64,000 nt of DNA from Bdellovibrionales bacterium (lineage in GTDB: Bacteria > Bdellovibrionota > Bdellovibrionia > Bdellovibrionales > UBA1609), in assembly GCA_027459485.1 (NCBI GenBank), contig DAIDIG010000003.1, positions 248,001-312,000 on the forward strand, read 5' to 3'. Of the stretch, positions 1,811 through 14,158 are shown piece by piece (the first letter of the stretch is position 1; each line of letters opens with the position of its first letter). A program made the position numbers and the translations under genes. Under the pieces are notes generated by a model. That model was not told the DNA's origin, did not search any database, and saw nothing but the letters and a program-made list of their open reading frames with translations.

Positions 1811-2071
1811 ATGAATGCAAAACCCTTCGACATAATTGTCGCAAAAGAATACCAGACAAAAATTGACGGGAAAACCGTTAAAAGGACCATTTGGAATAGA
1901 GTCGGCTGTGCCTGGCCATCGAGATCCTACGAATCGATTAGCTTTGAGCTCTACCTGATCCCAGGGCAGCGCTATGTGATCCGCCTTAAAGAACGCGAAA
2001 CCGCTGACCTACGAAACGATGACTCAAACACACAAGTGCCAACAACTACCGAACAGACAAATAACCAATAA
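1811..2071 (+). CDS. hypothetical protein, element-borne
   Basis: The 86-residue protein is preceded by a clear AGAGGAG site. The first two thirds read like a small beta-rich fold (alternating hydrophobic residues, ISFELYLIPGQRYVIRL); the tail is a polar Thr/Gln/Asn stretch. This resembles small single-domain proteins seen at the head of conjugation operons, but I recognise no family. It lies 16 bases upstream of the pilin-like gene. Confidence 0.55.
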   Translation: MNAKPFDIIVAKEYQTKIDGKTVKRTIWNRVGCAWPSRSYESISFELYLIPGQRYVIRLKERETADLRNDDSNTQVPTTTEQTNNQ

Positions 2072-2087
2072 ATCGAAAGGACAAAAA

Positions 2088-2360
2088 ATGAACAAACGAA
2101 ATCTATTTTTATTGAGCGCAATTCTTTTTATCTGCCCATTTGCTAACGCCTCGGTTGAATCGTCGCTTATGGGCCTTAAAGACGTGCTTCTCACTTCGAT
2201 TCTGCCGGTCTTTGCCGTTATCGGAATCAGTTTTGCAGCATTTAGCTTTTTTACCGGAAACCCACGAGCCAAAGAACATCTGATGTACGCAATTGCGGGT
2301 GCTGCCATTTGTTTTGGGGCACAATCAATCGTTGATCTTTTAAGTCGGGTGGTGCGATGA
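2088..2360 (+). CDS. virB2: VirB2/TrbC-like pilin subunit
   Basis: A 90-residue protein with a signal peptide (cleavage near ANA-SV, about residue 20) and two further hydrophobic segments separated by a short polar loop (TGNPRAKEHL). This size and topology is typical of VirB2/TrbC prepilins, which form the conjugative pilus. GAAAGG lies upstream of ATG 2088. The stop overlaps the start of the next gene (ATGA at 2357-2360), and the position before VirB3- and VirB4-like genes fits. Assignment is by topology and gene order, not by a conserved motif. Confidence 0.75.
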   Translation: MNKRNLFLLSAILFICPFANASVESSLMGLKDVLLTSILPVFAVIGISFAAFSFFTGNPRAKEHLMYAIAGAAICFGAQSIVDLLSRVVR

Positions 2361-2698
2361 AAACGTGTCCAACAAGTAACATGAACCGCTCCCAATTATG
2401 GGGATTTGAGGTGAGCCACATTGTGATCTCACTTGGCATGCTTTCAGTGTCCGATATTTTTTTAAACATTATCGGCGCTCCACTAATGCTCGCCTGGGGA
2501 TTTGGGCTTCTCACCCTTGCGGGCTTACGATTCGTCTCGCACGGGCAAAAAAACGGGCATCTCGAACTTCTCATGCGGTTCATATTAGAGCCACATATAT
2601 TCTTGGGCCACGGCGGCCGGGTACGAGGTCCAGTAATCCCATTGACTTCGGGGCCAGTAACTTCGTTGACTTTGGCTTCGACTTTGGGGGCACGATGA
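2357..2698 (+). CDS. virB3: VirB3/TrbD-like T4SS membrane protein
   Basis: A 113-residue protein with two closely spaced membrane segments (about residues 20-55) and a longer polar C-terminus. It overlaps the pilin gene and the VirB4 gene by four bases each, so translation is probably coupled. VirB3-type proteins sit in the inner membrane with the VirB4 ATPase and support pilus assembly; in some systems the two are fused. The C-terminal third (Gly/Pro/Ser/Thr-rich) looks poorly conserved. Called from size, membrane pattern and context. Confidence 0.65.
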   Translation: MKTCPTSNMNRSQLWGFEVSHIVISLGMLSVSDIFLNIIGAPLMLAWGFGLLTLAGLRFVSHGQKNGHLELLMRFILEPHIFLGHGGRVRGPVIPLTSGPVTSLTLASTLGAR

Positions 2699-4755
2699 CC
2701 AAGTATTCACTTACAAAACAAGTTCTTGGCACCGAATGGTTAAGTGACGGGGTTGTTACCGCTCAAGACGGCACTCTATTAAAGGCGTTTCAAGTCGAGC
2801 CGCTTACAAGCGGAAATCTCGAGGACGGCTTTAATGGTCCGATCTCCGACAATTTTTTTGCAAAGCTCTCTGAACTTCTCACACGCCTTCCAAGCCATTT
2901 TGATGGCCACGCCATACTTCAACGCCGGCAACTTTCTAATTCCGAAATTGGCGGATTTAAAACAACACTCTACTTTTTCGAAAAAGTTGAAAAGGCCGAA
3001 AGTTATTCCCACATTAATGCGCTACTGACTGAACTTAAAATGGCACCAAAACCGCTCGCGCAAGATTCTTTCGCATTTTTGTTATCTGGCGTATTCGGGA
3101 GCCCCGTCCTGGCCGGCCGATTACCTGATCTCACTTGGGAAAAAGACTCAATCCGCGTCAAAGATCAGGTCATTCGTGCACTGAGCTTAACTGAACTCCC
3201 CCAGGTCACTTGGAAAGGATGCTTTCAGGCAATTTTTGAAGCCCCAAGTGAATTTACATTATCGCTTCGCTTTTTTATACCTGAGCGGACAAGAATAAAG
3301 CGCCAGCTTGAAACCAAACGTCGCGTAAGCCATGCGCTATCAATCACGACCTCGCTTGAAGTTAAAAATATTGAATCTAACTCCGTTCTTCACTCATCAG
3401 AAGAAACTCTAGAGCGAATTCTAATCAACAAAGAAACGCTTTTTGAAATTTCGCTCGGCGTTTTACTCCTCGGCACAAATGCGGACACAATTAGACTTTC
3501 GCACGATCTTGAGCGTGTCGTCGCAGGAATCGGCAATGCCGGCATTTATATCGAGGAGCTTGGGTCTTTACCAGTATTAAGGAGTCATATTCCGGGTAAC
3601 CGTGTGCTCGGCATTCGAAAAATGCCGATCTTAACAGAAAACCTGGCCCACATTTTCCCGCTATTTCACGATTATTCAAGAGCACAAAACGCATCACATC
3701 TCGAACTTCGGTCACGAAGTGGCGAAGTGTCGCACTTAAATTTATTTTCGCGCGAGAATTTAAACTTTAACGCCTTTATTTGCGGAGCTTCGGGATCAGG
3801 TAAATCGTTTTTGATGAATGCAATTTTAACCTCGACGTTGAAAGACGATAAACGCTCAAGACTTTGCATATTTGACGTCGGCGGCTCATATAAGCGCATT
3901 GTCGAATCAAACGGCGGCCAAAGCTTAAGCCTCAGTAGCGCGCAAGCGCGCGCACTCATCGCAAGTTTTGTTCGGATTTTTCCGACCGATGCAAACGGAT
4001 TCTTTCGAACTTTCATCGAAACGCTTTGCGGCTCGGGCAGTCATATTACCCATTCCCACGCTGTCGCAATCGACGATTTGATTCATGAATTGATAGGCGA
4101 ACACCTTAAAATTCGCAGGCTAATAGAGCTTGCCGAAAAGCGACCGGAGCGGTTTTACCATGACATTGCCCACTGGTTAAAACCGCACGTCACATTTGAC
4201 GACGTCGAGGCACGCCCCGATCTCGTTGAAACAATTAAAGGTCAAGTTTCGGCATTTGATTTTAAGGAACTTGATTCCGATCCTGTGTTGCAAAAAACAA
4301 CGATACTACTTCTAACTGAACTTTTGTGGCGTGACCTATCGGCCGGGCGCTATTCGCACACCCTTATAGTATTTGACGAAGTCTGGCGTTTTTTTTCGCA
4401 AAGTAAGTCGTTTTTAGAAGAAATGTACCGCACACTTCGAAAATATAAAGCCGGTATTGTATCCATCACGCAAAGCCTTGCCGACTATGGGGACGAAGCG
4501 TTTGCTAAAATGCTATTTACCAATAGCTATACAAAAATTTTCTTACAAAATGGCGCCGCAGCCGAATATTTGCGAGAAACGTTTGATTTACCGAATTCTG
4601 ATATCGCACGCGCCTTATCTGTTTCATCTAAAAAACCCGATTACTCCGAATTCTTTGTTCTGACTCCGACGATGAGTCAGATCTTTCGACTCTATCCGAC
4701 TGAAGAATTTTACAAACTCGCTAATACCGAAAACATCGCACAAAACCCCAGCTAA
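2695..4755 (+). CDS. virB4: VirB4/TraC-family T4SS ATPase
   Basis: A 686-residue cytoplasmic ATPase that energises pilus biogenesis and transfer. The Walker A motif GASGSGKS is at about residue 364, and the Walker B motif (LIVFDEVW) is at about 560, followed by the arm typical of the family (KYKAGIVSITQS). The N-terminal 350 residues match the less conserved CagE/TrbE/VirB region. Length is somewhat short for VirB4 (usually about 790-850). It overlaps the VirB3-like gene by four bases. This is the firmest marker that the block is a conjugation system. Confidence 0.93.
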   Translation: MTKYSLTKQVLGTEWLSDGVVTAQDGTLLKAFQVEPLTSGNLEDGFNGPISDNFFAKLSELLTRLPSHFDGHAILQRRQLSNSEIGGFKTTLYFFEKVEKAESYSHINALLTELKMAPKPLAQDSFAFLLSGVFGSPVLAGRLPDLTWEKDSIRVKDQVIRALSLTELPQVTWKGCFQAIFEAPSEFTLSLRFFIPERTRIKRQLETKRRVSHALSITTSLEVKNIESNSVLHSSEETLERILINKETLFEISLGVLLLGTNADTIRLSHDLERVVAGIGNAGIYIEELGSLPVLRSHIPGNRVLGIRKMPILTENLAHIFPLFHDYSRAQNASHLELRSRSGEVSHLNLFSRENLNFNAFICGASGSGKSFLMNAILTSTLKDDKRSRLCIFDVGGSYKRIVESNGGQSLSLSSAQARALIASFVRIFPTDANGFFRTFIETLCGSGSHITHSHAVAIDDLIHELIGEHLKIRRLIELAEKRPERFYHDIAHWLKPHVTFDDVEARPDLVETIKGQVSAFDFKELDSDPVLQKTTILLLTELLWRDLSAGRYSHTLIVFDEVWRFFSQSKSFLEEMYRTLRKYKAGIVSITQSLADYGDEAFAKMLFTNSYTKIFLQNGAAAEYLRETFDLPNSDIARALSVSSKKPDYSEFFVLTPTMSQIFRLYPTEEFYKLANTENIAQNPS

Positions 4756-8021: not shown

Positions 8022-9608
8022 ATGAACACTCAAAATACAAATGACACTCACCAAAACCGAAGTCTTGGGATGCTTTTAACCGGCATAATGGGTCTTGTGG
8101 CTTATGAATTTTATTCGTCGCTTGATACGGCCGAGAAAATCTTATTTTGGCTTATGATGCCAGCAGTCGGCTTTCCGTTGGGCGTACTTCTTTTTGATCG
8201 ATATTCTAAATGGGGAAAAGCAAAAAGAAAGCGAATCGAAACGATAAAAGAAATTCCGCCGGAGCTACTTTTATCATCGCCTACGAGTATTTACTTAGGC
8301 CATGATTTGAATCTAGATATTGATGTTTATTTGCCAGACGAAGTTCGTTGCCGCCACGTTCACCTTGTTGGCGGCTCTGGATTTGGCAAAACCAACACAC
8401 TTCAAAATTTTATCAAGCAAGATTCAGATCGTGGACTTGGCATGATCATTCTTGATGGCAAAGGTGAGATTTCTTTTTTAAATTGGCTAAAAAGTGTCGT
8501 GCCAAAAAACCGGCTTTGCGTATTTGATCTAAGTGATGAAAAAAGCATGGGTTATAATCCGCTCTCGGACGGCTCGCCGCTTGAAGCCGCCCAAAGGCTT
8601 TACTCGTCTCTCACCTGGAGTGAGCCGTTTTACGCCGCGAAAGCGCGGGCAGCGCTTCAAACTATTTTTCAAAACCATTTTAAACTAAAAAAGAAGAATC
8701 CTTCGATCAAGGAATTGGCCGAATATCTTGATACTCCACAAAGTTACAGTTCGATTGCGACATCGCCCAGTTATCCGCCAAAGCTTGCAACGGAAGATTA
8801 TATGGGAATCGCCGGGCTTCGCGATCAAATAAATTCGCTTTGCACGGGGCACTTGGATAATATTTTATCTCCGAGTGATCGCTCAGAAATTAACTTGGGG
8901 TCAACACAAGACGGTAAAGTCTTATACTTTAGACTTCAAAGTTCACTTGCAACGCAGATTGCGTCAAATACTGGAAAGCTTCTTATTAACCACATCAATT
9001 TTTTGGCCGGAACGGCGCATAGAAACGGGCAGGCAAACAAAGCCAAACTCGTTCCAACCTATTTTGACGAGTTTGCGACGTTTGTGTGCCCCGAATTTGC
9101 AGACCTTATTTCAAAAGCCAGGTCGGCGGGCTACGCCCTTCATTTTTCCCACCAAAGTAAAGGGGATCTTGAGGACGTATCAAAAGGCTTTCTCGGGCGA
9201 ATTACCGATAACTCCGCGACCAAAATCATAATGCATATAAATGATCCCGATTCAGCCGATTTTTTTGCTAAATCCTTTGGCACATCCAAATACCAAAAAG
9301 TCACCCAGCGAATTACAAATGCCAAAGACGCCGATGACGCCGAACTTGTTGGTGAGGGGTCGAGTCGCGAAGCCCATAGATATAAAACATCTCCTGATGA
9401 ACTGAAATCACACCCGACAGGAGTGGGTTCGGTTCTTATTGCCCACGGCAAAGACACGGCTCATGGAGCATCTGATTTTTTTAAAATTAGGTTTCCGCCA
9501 ATACCAAAAGAGGTCGAAGAATCTAAGTCTCAAACTGAGACAAATGCTAACCTAAAGTCCATTAATAACTCAGACATTATTAAAATTGATATTTATGATA
9601 AGATATAG
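8022..9608 (+). CDS. VirD4/TraD-family conjugative coupling protein
   Basis: A 528-residue DNA-translocating ATPase that brings the substrate to the channel. Two N-terminal membrane helices (about residues 15-70) precede Walker A (GGSGFGKT, about 117) and Walker B (PTYFDEFA, about 347). The C-terminal motor region carries the conserved HQSKGDLE and DNSATKIIMH segments. GAAGGAG stands upstream of the start. A coupling protein argues for conjugation rather than only protein secretion. It is followed directly by the mobile mystery pair. Confidence 0.9.
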   Translation: MNTQNTNDTHQNRSLGMLLTGIMGLVAYEFYSSLDTAEKILFWLMMPAVGFPLGVLLFDRYSKWGKAKRKRIETIKEIPPELLLSSPTSIYLGHDLNLDIDVYLPDEVRCRHVHLVGGSGFGKTNTLQNFIKQDSDRGLGMIILDGKGEISFLNWLKSVVPKNRLCVFDLSDEKSMGYNPLSDGSPLEAAQRLYSSLTWSEPFYAAKARAALQTIFQNHFKLKKKNPSIKELAEYLDTPQSYSSIATSPSYPPKLATEDYMGIAGLRDQINSLCTGHLDNILSPSDRSEINLGSTQDGKVLYFRLQSSLATQIASNTGKLLINHINFLAGTAHRNGQANKAKLVPTYFDEFATFVCPEFADLISKARSAGYALHFSHQSKGDLEDVSKGFLGRITDNSATKIIMHINDPDSADFFAKSFGTSKYQKVTQRITNAKDADDAELVGEGSSREAHRYKTSPDELKSHPTGVGSVLIAHGKDTAHGASDFFKIRFPPIPKEVEESKSQTETNANLKSINNSDIIKIDIYDKI

Positions 9609-9645
9609 CTGTTCAAGAAACATGATGAATGATAAGTTAAATATT

Positions 9646-10149
9646 ATGAAAACAAGTAAAAGGAACCTTCTATTACAGAGGCAAATTATTGAGAAAAAAG
9701 TCAAGCCGTGGGTTCGTTTGCGTGATAGTTCACCCCCGAAGTCTGGCTGGATAAGGGCAATAAGGGGCGCATTAGGGATGAATACGCGCCAACTCGCAGA
9801 GCGTGTCGGCGTCAATCAGCCTGCCATTACACAACTCGAAAATCGCGAGGCGACCAAAAAAGTGACCCTTGACCTTTTAGACCGAGTCGCATCGGCAATG
9901 GACTGTAAACTCGTTTATGCAATCGTGCCAAATTCGCCATATAAAACCTTAGACGAAATTGTTGATGAGCATGCCAGCCGGTCTGCCGCCAAGTTGATTC
10001 GATCGGTGGGTCACTCGATGCAGCTCGAAGCACAAGGGCTTGATAACGACGATATCAAGCAACAAACAATGCGACTGACACACGAACTAAAATCAAAAAT
10101 TGACTCTCGAATATGGGACGAGCGTTCAAAAAAGAAAGGAGGCAAATAA
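9646..10149 (+). CDS. mobile mystery protein A (XRE-type regulator)
   Basis: The 167-residue protein has an XRE helix-turn-helix (MNTRQLAERVGVNQPAITQL, about residues 45-64) between a basic N-terminus and a helical tail. This architecture, directly followed by a Fic protein, matches mobile mystery protein A (TIGR02612), known to occur with protein B on mobile elements. The start could also be ATG 9622 or 9625; 9646 is chosen because the family begins with the basic helix. A role as DNA-binding repressor or antidote of the pair is inference. Confidence 0.85.
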   Translation: MKTSKRNLLLQRQIIEKKVKPWVRLRDSSPPKSGWIRAIRGALGMNTRQLAERVGVNQPAITQLENREATKKVTLDLLDRVASAMDCKLVYAIVPNSPYKTLDEIVDEHASRSAAKLIRSVGHSMQLEAQGLDNDDIKQQTMRLTHELKSKIDSRIWDERSKKKGGK

Positions 10150-10152
10150 ACA

Positions 10153-10749
10153 ATGGCGGATTTAAAATTTATATATCCGCCAGGTGCGACCCCGCTTGAT
10201 CCCGATGAATCGGCTGGCCTAATACCTGACTACGTTTCAACTCAAGGTGAGCTCAACGTGCTAGAGCAAGAAAACATTGTCGAAGCGCACGCTTGGGCAA
10301 GAAAGAAAGTGCATGGCGATATTTTAAACGTTTCGTTTGCCCTCGAACTTCACAAACAAATGTTTGGGCGCGTTTGGAAATGGGCAGGCCGACCGCGCGT
10401 TTCAAATAAAAACATCGGCGTCAGCCACGAACAGATTAACGCGAAGCTCTCGGCACTCCTTAAAGACACGGACCACTGGATAAAAAATCAAACGTATAAC
10501 TGGGATGAGATCGGCGCACGATTTCATCATCGACTCGTATCTATCCATGTCTTTTCAAACGGCAACGGCCGTCATGCTCGTCTTATGACCGATATTCTGC
10601 TTGAAAAATACCGCCAATCTCCGTTTACCTGGGGTGCCACTCAGAGTTCACTTGAAGTCCAAAGCACCGTTCGAAAAAACTATATTTCCGCTTTAAAATC
10701 CGCCGACCAGGGTGATTTAAAAGAACTTATCCGCTTTGTCAGAAGCTAA
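10153..10749 (+). CDS. mobile mystery protein B (Fic family)
   Basis: A 198-residue Fic/DOC protein with the active-site motif HVFSNGNGRHAR at residues 132-143, complete with the catalytic His and the anion-binding GNGR. Fic proteins usually transfer AMP or similar groups to hydroxyl side chains. The partner gene ends three bases upstream, giving the TIGR02612/TIGR02613 pair. I see no obvious inhibitory (S/T)xxxE(G/N) helix within this protein. The pair resembles a toxin-antitoxin module, but its function is not settled. Confidence 0.88.
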   Translation: MADLKFIYPPGATPLDPDESAGLIPDYVSTQGELNVLEQENIVEAHAWARKKVHGDILNVSFALELHKQMFGRVWKWAGRPRVSNKNIGVSHEQINAKLSALLKDTDHWIKNQTYNWDEIGARFHHRLVSIHVFSNGNGRHARLMTDILLEKYRQSPFTWGATQSSLEVQSTVRKNYISALKSADQGDLKELIRFVRS

Positions 10750-11200: not shown

Positions 11201-11212
11201 GGAGGATTGAAA

Positions 11213-11539
11213 GTGAAAAACCGAATACAGTTTACGCTCACTGATGAAACGCTAAAAATCGTAGAAGATACGTTCAAAGAGGTGACCCAAAACTTTAAAA
11301 CTGGCTCGATCAACTATTCTGATGTCATAAACGAAATGATTCTCACCTCAAGGGTTGACGTCAAATCGCTTCAACATAAGAAGACAAATTTGCGTCGCTC
11401 GCTTCGCGTGATGGCAAAAGATCCAAGTATTGATTATGAGGCCGCTATCGAATTGCTAAACAAAATGAAGCCAAAGCCGGCCAAGAATAGCTCGAAAGCA
11501 AAAGTCGAGACGGAGGCGCAAAGTGAAAGCACCGAATAG
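11213..11539 (+). CDS. small accessory DNA-binding-like protein
   Basis: The 108-residue protein starts at GTG 11213, seven bases after GGAGG (11201-11205); a TTG at 11207 is too close to that site. The N-terminus alternates like a ribbon-helix-helix strand (NRIQFTLTDETLKIV), followed by helices and a Lys-rich tail. That layout is common in mobilisation accessory proteins that sit on oriT, but no family is confirmed. Its end overlaps the start of the next gene by 17 bases, implying a shared operon. Confidence 0.5.
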   Translation: MKNRIQFTLTDETLKIVEDTFKEVTQNFKTGSINYSDVINEMILTSRVDVKSLQHKKTNLRRSLRVMAKDPSIDYEAAIELLNKMKPKPAKNSSKAKVETEAQSESTE

Positions 11540-12455: not shown

Positions 12456-12586
12456 TCCCGCCAGTCCGCCAGCTTCCCCTCTGAAGCTCCGTGACCCCTC
12501 CCTACCTACATTACTAAAGTAATGTAGCATTTCATGCAGCGGTAGAAAGGGGTCACGGAGACAGGGAAGCTGGCGGACTGGCGGGA
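12456..12586. repeat. large nested palindrome, candidate oriT or replication site
   Basis: Perfect 23-bp arms at 12456-12478 and 12564-12586 enclose perfect 13-bp arms at 12487-12499 and 12548-12560. Inside, a 10-bp hairpin with an AA loop lies at 12506-12527. The asymmetric loop continues with about 20 unpaired bases. The outer arms contain GCC/GGC steps (CCGCCAG...). The position between the putative DNA-processing gene and the excisionase gene fits an origin of transfer or a regulated recombination site. No T-run makes a simple terminator unlikely. Confidence 0.85.
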
Positions 12587-12609: not shown

Positions 12610-12894
12610 ATGAAGCAGTTAGTCCATACAAAATCATTTGTGTGTCCTGCTGAGTCAGCTATAAGATCAAACCCGGTTAGTCAGCTCTTTGAAAAAAAAA
12701 TAGCTCGTGAACATGCTTTACTGGAGAAACCGAGATGGTTCACAACCAGTGAAGCAGCTCAATATTTAAGGGTCTCGGTCAATAGTATAAAAACTATGGT
12801 GTACCGAGGTAAGATTCAGGTTTATAAGCTCGGAAGGCGTAATCGCTTTCTGCGCGATGACCTCGAGCGGCTGATCGTACTTCCAAAACATTAG
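12610..12894 (+). CDS. excisionase-like HTH protein
   Basis: The 94-residue protein carries a MerR-like/HTH_17 helix-turn-helix at residues 40-90 (FTTSEAAQYLRVSVNSIKTM, then GRRNRFLRDDL), as in excisionases and small element regulators. It has a roughly 38-residue polar N-terminal extension. AAGAGG lies upstream. It ends ten bases before the integrase gene, the classical xis-int order, so a role in directing excision or regulating int is likely. Confidence 0.8.
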   Translation: MKQLVHTKSFVCPAESAIRSNPVSQLFEKKIAREHALLEKPRWFTTSEAAQYLRVSVNSIKTMVYRGKIQVYKLGRRNRFLRDDLERLIVLPKH

Positions 12895-12904
12895 GAGGTA
12901 GAAA

Positions 12905-14158
12905 ATGCCGCAAAAACAAGTCTTATATAAAGGAATAAAAAAGCTCGTCGTCACAGTAGCCGTATCGTGCAAGGATCATCCCTCCGGACGATTCCAGCTC
13001 AAACGGACGTATGATAATATCGACGTTAATTCTCCGAAGGCAAATTCGCTTGAACGCGAACTTCTTCGCGCGGCGGAAAGGCAAAAGGCGTTGCGCGAAC
13101 ATCAGGGCAAAACATGGGAAGTTTTACTGAATTTGTACGGCGACCATACCAATACGCTAGTCCGCAACGGTGAATGGTGCCAGAGCCCTCAAACCTTCGA
13201 TGAATCACTGCGGTCAATGTATAAATGGACGAAGCCTTGGTTTGATCTCATCGCGGCTCAAATCAGCGCGTATGATGTGACAAGGCTACTCCATAACATG
13301 AAGGACGAAGGTTGCGCTGATGTGACTTTGCAAAAAATGCGAGCCAATATCAAAAAGGTATTCGAGTTCGGTTTTTTGTATGAGCACGTGCGCGGCATAA
13401 AGCAAAGTCCGACGACTGGCGTGACAATCGCCAGCCGCCGCCGAATGCGGACTGAAATTTTACGCGACGACGAGATCGTAAAACTCCTCTCCTACGCTAA
13501 GGAATACGAACCGACTTGGTATTTTATTTGGGCATTTGCAGTGTATACAGGTTGCCGAAATGGCGAGCTTTACGCACTAAAATGGTCAGATATAAATTTT
13601 GAAGATCGTATGATCACAGTCCAACGGTCCTATAATAAAAAATATAAAGTCGAAAAATCGACCAAGACTGGCGAGTGGAGGCACGTTTCGATTTGCCCAC
13701 CACTTTGGGAAATCGTACAGGAGTTAAAACGGATGCACGACCACGATGTCGAACGCGGCGAATGTAACCACGTCGGCTACGTTCTTCCGCGCCCCGGTTC
13801 CTGGCAAAATGGCGAACAAGCCAGTAAGCTTCGTAAGTTTTGTGAGGAGATCGGCATTACGCCCGTTTGTTTTCACACCCTTCGAGCGTGCTTTGCCACG
13901 GAACTTCTAAAGCGTGGCGTTGCCGTTCCAAGCGTGATGCGGGCCGGCGGTTGGACAAGCGTAAAGACGATGATGCACTACGTGCGTTTATCAGGAATGG
14001 ATGACAAGGGGATCACCGATCCACTTGATTATCGTTCACCTGATCCGGTCGAAGCGAACAAGAAGTTAATGGCCGCAGTCGGAGAAAAGTTTGAGGGCGT
14101 TCACGAAGCTGTGGTAATTCCGCTTATGAGCAGAAAATTGCCAAGTAGCTTGAGGTAG
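12905..14158 (+). CDS. int: tyrosine-recombinase integrase
   Basis: A 417-residue integrase. The N-terminal half holds an AP2-like arm and a SAM-like core-binding domain; the catalytic domain follows from about residue 195. Active-site residues are visible: Arg218 (TGCRNGEL), a Lys in the beta hairpin (STKTGEWR), His324 and Arg327 (HTLRA), Trp350 in the second His position (AGGWTS), and the nucleophile Tyr359 (MHYVR). The enzyme should be active. GGAGG stands before the ATG. It is the last gene of the element, next to the presumed attachment site. Confidence 0.93.
   Translation: MPQKQVLYKGIKKLVVTVAVSCKDHPSGRFQLKRTYDNIDVNSPKANSLERELLRAAERQKALREHQGKTWEVLLNLYGDHTNTLVRNGEWCQSPQTFDESLRSMYKWTKPWFDLIAAQISAYDVTRLLHNMKDEGCADVTLQKMRANIKKVFEFGFLYEHVRGIKQSPTTGVTIASRRRMRTEILRDDEIVKLLSYAKEYEPTWYFIWAFAVYTGCRNGELYALKWSDINFEDRMITVQRSYNKKYKVEKSTKTGEWRHVSICPPLWEIVQELKRMHDHDVERGECNHVGYVLPRPGSWQNGEQASKLRKFCEEIGITPVCFHTLRACFATELLKRGVAVPSVMRAGGWTSVKTMMHYVRLSGMDDKGITDPLDYRSPDPVEANKKLMAAVGEKFEGVHEAVVIPLMSRKLPSSLR

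Follow-up and report, generated by a model that had tools for sequence, protein, structure and literature searches.

The window analysed here is a stretch of 64,000 nucleotides of a Bdellovibrionales genome, in which genes of conjugation and of integration lie around a nested palindrome (Table 1). An integrase, an excisionase, a T4SS ATPase and a coupling protein are found together, and judged by this gene content the element around the palindrome is an integrative and conjugative element (ICE). The search for its ends revealed no direct repeat of at least 12 bp between the tested flanks, and no empty site was found among five congeners. The small protein encoded before the relaxase gene looks RHH-like by eye. 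Between the coupling protein and relaxase genes (9586-10749) stand a gene for an XRE-type HTH protein and, 3' of it, one for a Fic/DOC protein, which may form a toxin-antitoxin pair or a regulatory pair of the Fic type. The same genome holds a second ICE of this family, which has a different gene at this place. A KhpA-like KH-domain gene (646-936) lies near the conjugation module, and similar stretches occur elsewhere in the genome (C3:231531-231746 and C9:93297-93474).

Table 1. Features at and around the nested palindrome; positions are those of the window unless a locus is named
Feature	Position	Strand	Basis or remark
TrbC/VirB2-like pilin	2019..2360	+	conjugation module
VirB4/TraC-like T4SS ATPase	2695..4755	+	conjugation module
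VirD4/TraD-like coupling protein	8022..9608	+	conjugation module
Small conserved protein, 110 aa, candidate auxiliary relaxosome protein	11207..11539	+	directly 5' of the relaxase gene in 13 loci
MOBC-like relaxase candidate, 294 aa	11523..12407	+	invariant P152-D153, E174, K178; PD-(D/E)XK-like motif
Outer arm, left (23 bp)	12456..12478	+	arm pairing; sequence differs yet is complementary in homologs
Asymmetric junction element TCTGAAG (consensus TCTAAAG)	12480..12486	+	conserved element in homologs
Inner arm CTCCGTGACCCCT, TGACC core (consensus TGACCACT)	12487..12499	+	pairing, homolog alignment
Third level: apical hairpin of 10 bp, differing among homologs	12506..12527	+	arms 12506-12515/12518-12527
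Inner arm AGGGGTCACGGAG	12548..12560	+	pairing, homolog alignment; contains predicted nic
Short junction ACA, opposite side (consensus AC)	12561..12563	+	conserved element in homologs
Outer arm, right (23 bp)	12564..12586	+	arm pairing
Excisionase (HTH_17 / TIGR01764)	12610..12894	+	domain match
Tyrosine integrase (PF00589)	12905..14158	+	domain match
Third MOBC locus, relaxase through hairpin	L156 1673-2612 = G000:C3:38172-39111		

The initial annotation had described a nested palindrome with perfect arms of 23, 13 and 10 bp at 12456-12586, placed between a DNA-processing candidate and xis, and our arm search recovered the same arrangement. The outer and the apical arms match at 100%, and the inner arms form a perfect core of 13 bp that extends to 20 bp at 90%. 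The site begins 48 bp past the gene of the MOBC-like relaxase (about 290 aa) and ends 23 bp ahead of xis-int. The 23- and 13-bp arms are the two longest in the window and the sole perfect arms of at least 12 bp in its 64 kb at spacers of up to about 130 bp, and the longest arm in 20 first-order Markov copies of the window was 14 bp; the arms of the palindrome exceed the chance expectation. The folding calculations that had been proposed gave -58.9 kcal/mol (z -15.1) for DNA and -98.1 (z -12.8) for RNA, both far more stable than the shuffled sequences.

The MOBC-like relaxase candidate

The 294-aa protein scored 13.4 bits against the NCBIfam model NF041423 (MobC), which lies under the curated cut-off of 200, and for this reason we call it MOBC-like and place it outside the strict NF041423 subfamily. 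Among the 13 homologs of its family, 11 match MobC_subf (best 3.4e-5) and 5 match Pfam Replic_Relax (best 1.7e-4), and hhalign of the family against two enterobacterial MobC proteins gave an E-value of 7e-6 and a probability of 84 over an alignment that covers PD...VAFEVERTxKS. These two family-level comparisons carry the MOBC assignment. The four residues P152, D153, E174 and K178 are invariant across the 13 members, and the conserved PD...ExE...K motif is aligned with that of MobC. MOBC relaxases have been described as relatives of the PD-(D/E)XK group, and no covalent DNA intermediate was detected for them (PMC12857230). The AlphaFold model of the window relaxase, made from a two-sequence input, had a pLDDT of 34, too low for a fold to be read from it, and a PDB sequence search returned no nuclease match.

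Conservation and covariation of the palindrome

The same nested hairpin is present in 13 other loci, 12 of which carry the relaxase gene upstream, while the remaining one is cut by a contig end. In an order-wide protein search, all close relaxase loci that were uncut and untruncated had the hairpin just downstream. The second ICE of the same genome (G000:C1:460601-460727; L004 5618-5709) is equipped with a relaxase, a hairpin, xis and int of its own, and its palindrome is an 82% identical copy at the equivalent place. At L156 1673-2485 the genome encodes a distant MOBC relaxase, its third, and downstream a serine recombinase; here the nested hairpin (2515-2612) starts 30 bp past the relaxase stop codon and has the core CGTGACCACC. 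The homologs keep both outer levels of the structure, and the apical third level differs in length and sequence. The position of the TCTGAAG junction holds a short hairpin in some distant relatives: a stem of at least 4 bp was seen on this 5' side in 21 of 69 copies, against 2 of 69 on the opposite side. A search of viral contigs brought up no relative.

The arm sequences differ among the close homologs and complementarity is retained. We quantified this on 14 cores aligned with MAFFT, an alignment that was not fitted to any structure. All 182 of 182 cells of the inner 13-bp stem are Watson-Crick pairs; seven of the 13 pairs have changed on both sides, whereas one-sided changes, and with them G-U, are absent. 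Pairing over the whole structure reaches 96.8%, compared with 32-48% in controls with a slid register. Absence of arm covariation in homologous elements would have spoken against the initial annotation; covariation is complete. RNA helices normally vary through G-U pairs. Since G-U is absent despite 23 double-change cells, the data point to a double-stranded DNA palindrome as the conserved feature. Of the selection on DNA or RNA structure that had been suspected, they favour the part concerning DNA over the part concerning RNA.

Distribution in the phylum

A first covariance model (R1) had matches in 55 of the 369 genomes of Bdellovibrionota, and a corrected model (R2) in 95 of 369. R1 acted largely as a sequence model, and R2, built in the right register, confirmed and extended its matches. 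The threshold for both was E 1e-3 per genome, and therefore about 0.4 false genomes would be expected over the 369, the E-values being rough owing to a short calibration.

We surveyed the flanks of 56 R1 places outside the starting set. A MOBC relaxase gene on the same strand accompanies 39 of these hairpins; in 37 cases it ends at the hairpin or shortly 5' of it (a few hundred bp at most) and in two it follows the hairpin. Downstream there is mostly either xis with a tyrosine integrase or a large serine recombinase, which are unrelated classes, and the serine recombinases lie about 200-1700 bp from the hairpin. No recombinase was seen at six loci, four of which have scant or no downstream sequence or a contig end. 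When the survey started from the relaxase genes instead, 30 loci were evaluable, and in 19 of them the longest perfect inverted repeat within 600 bp downstream measured 13-24 bp; within 600 bp upstream it never exceeded 10 bp. This downstream repeat is present at every uncut, intact close homolog and at several distant ones; the relaxases without it are mostly distant and one is truncated. Eight distant MOBC-like genes (L042-L045, L047, L049, L050 and L054) have no such hairpin within 600 bp downstream, and they may be served by an oriT at a different place or of a different type. Draft assemblies break in or beside the hairpin at L015 (2402-2464), L108, L119, L129 and L139, perhaps due to the palindrome itself or to its repeated copies, and the hairpin counts may therefore be underestimates.

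Copies without a relaxase gene

Fourteen hairpins that are uncut by contig ends (L089, L091, L092, L094, L095, L096, L100, L115, L124, L126, L128, L135, L136 and L140) have a recombinase downstream, and their upstream sequence, surveyed over up to 3 kb, contains no MOBC gene. We call them relaxase-less in the sense that a MOBC gene is absent, MOBC being the one relaxase family looked for in these islands. Extension of nine such loci by about 6-19 kb brought up no MOBC gene in any of the nine. L091, L094, L095 and L096 combine a near-identical serine recombinase and hairpin with differing upstream genes in four genomes. At L157, genes that appear by eye to be clpP-clpX-lon start about 9.6 kb upstream of this hairpin, and therefore the island has to be smaller than that on this side. 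Other neighbours, again named by eye, are katG-like (L095), dps-like (L091), methyltransferase-like (L089) and AbiE-like (L128), and they could be cargo or flanking host genes.

Islands of this composition seem to borrow the transfer machinery of another element. They resemble the iOriT elements, integrative mobilizable elements that consist of oriT and a recombinase and have no relaxase (PMC11389934), inasmuch as our 14 loci have a hairpin and a recombinase and no detected MOBC relaxase. For the islands described here, mobilization by a helper is a presumption.

Discussion

Our data argue that the palindrome serves a MOBC-type ICE as its oriT and that the MOBC-like relaxase encoded directly upstream acts on it, a reading to which we assign a probability of roughly 0.88. 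The oriT role was one of several candidates in the initial annotation, and it is now strongly supported by the arm covariation, by the linkage to MOBC relaxases, including the adjacent gene in the window, and by comparison with MOBC plasmids. A repeat search in CloDF13 detected CCGGCCCCCGTCAG/CTGACGGGGGCCGG at 9650-9783 enclosing the repeat GACCACCC/GGGTGGTC, that is, nested inverted repeats with a C/G-rich outer arm and an inner GACCACC/GGTGGTC core beside MOBC transfer genes. The junction of CloDF13 also carries a small hairpin on its 5' side, a trait shared with some distant copies of Bdellovibrionota. The CloDF13-type plasmids L057 and L148 have the same kind of repeat upstream of mobB, and four further MOBC plasmids of Enterobacterales (pYR8, pCE1681-B, Lelliottia plasmid unnamed3 and pKTa005_6) have perfect inverted repeats of 14-22 bp there, with the core GACCAC, or GACCAAC in one. 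R2, which was trained on Bdellovibrionota, detects the repeat of pYR8 from Yersinia ruckeri at E=2.5e-5; on the CloDF13 repeat it gave a non-significant 7.3 bits, and that repeat was found by the repeat search instead. In all these plasmids, CloDF13 among them, the repeat stands upstream of mobB-mobC, the region that holds their oriT. The linkage of the hairpin to MOBC-like relaxases spans two bacterial phyla.

The systems are not identical. The inverted repeat of the window has a core of the same type, although its TGACCCC is a covarying variant of the GACCAC-type core of the MOBC plasmids. The oriT of CloDF13 lies upstream of mobB-mobC, whereas the palindrome of the window stands 3' of the relaxase gene, between it and xis-int; the window relaxase is only distantly related to the MobC of CloDF13, and unlike that plasmid the window holds an integrated element with T4SS genes of its own. 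The enterobacterial plasmids differ also in the loop and the outer stem, and their records carry no oriT annotation. We take the nic of CloDF13 to be GGGTG/GTCGGG. When this site is aligned to the 3' inner arm, it falls on the invariant G-GTCA, which predicts nic on the + strand between 12551 and 12552; the - strand has the mirror position. As the palindrome at the nick site is almost perfectly symmetric, transfer of either strand might be possible. The order oriT-mobB-mobC is shared by CloDF13 and pMET1, and the nic of pMET1 is reported to lie within an inverted repeat (PMC2262945). By this description the MOBC transfer regions of pMET1 and HPI-ECOR31 are comparable to our element; they belong to another phylum.

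We infer recognition, nicking and its position, transfer and the mobilization of orphan islands. The element would first be excised by Xis-Int. The relaxase, probably aided by the small upstream protein, would then recognise the inner TGACC palindrome and nick it near G/GTCA, and one strand would leave by way of the VirD4/T4SS channel, whose genes lie at 2-10 kb.

One could argue that the hairpin serves replication, either as a single-strand origin (sso) that primes second-strand synthesis on the transferred ssDNA or, once the element is excised, as its double-strand or rolling-circle origin. Relaxase-adjacent hairpins do occur in sso regions, the ssDNA fold is very stable, and the oriT of ICEBs1 doubles as a double-strand origin (PMC4595007). 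By description, sso1 of ICEBs1 likewise has hairpins near the oriT of an ICE (PMC4595007), but its function depends on orientation and the element is of the MOBT type. However, the relaxases beside our hairpins are MOBC, the family that was looked for. What is conserved is a symmetric palindrome of double-stranded DNA with no tolerance for G-T, and it matches the repeats in the oriT regions of MOBC plasmids. We therefore consider a replication origin improbable as the explanation of the palindrome; such a role additional to oriT is possible.

The switch controlling xis-int that had been proposed is disfavoured by our data, whether it is imagined as an RNA switch, a terminator or an attenuator. 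The palindrome does stand 23 bp ahead of the xis start codon and has a strong RNA fold, but not a single G-U pair occurs where variation is common, and unrelated serine recombinases, often distant, also lie 3' of the hairpin. The same kind of repeat is found upstream of mobB-mobC in plasmids, the consensus scan showed no terminator-like or promoter-like site, and an Rfam scan gave no match, so that we regard this reading as very unlikely. An inserted MITE-like or REP-like palindrome with no role in its host element would account for the dispersed copies within the genome, and yet nearly every examined copy occupies the equivalent place beside relaxase and/or recombinase genes, the arms covary, and position and orientation are fixed in independent elements, which makes this idea barely credible. 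Both the terminator and the MITE readings were rejected on these grounds.

We return to the palindrome as a MOBC-type oriT. An oriT of this type is already known; what is new is its distribution across the phylum and the relaxase-less islands, and we met no description of an oriT from Bdellovibrionota in our literature searches. It is an even bet that MOBC ICEs and relaxase-less passenger islands form one transfer network throughout Bdellovibrionota on a single palindromic oriT, in which resident MOBC ICEs would act in trans to move interchangeable oriT-recombinase cassettes with varied cargo. The palindrome provides a structural signature for MOBC-type oriTs by which transfer origins become predictable across the phylum, and it exposes relaxase-less mobilizable islands that are missed by surveys based on relaxases. 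The hairpins also supply many natural substrate variants for tests of the mechanism of MOBC relaxases, whose reaction has shown no covalent DNA intermediate (PMC12857230).
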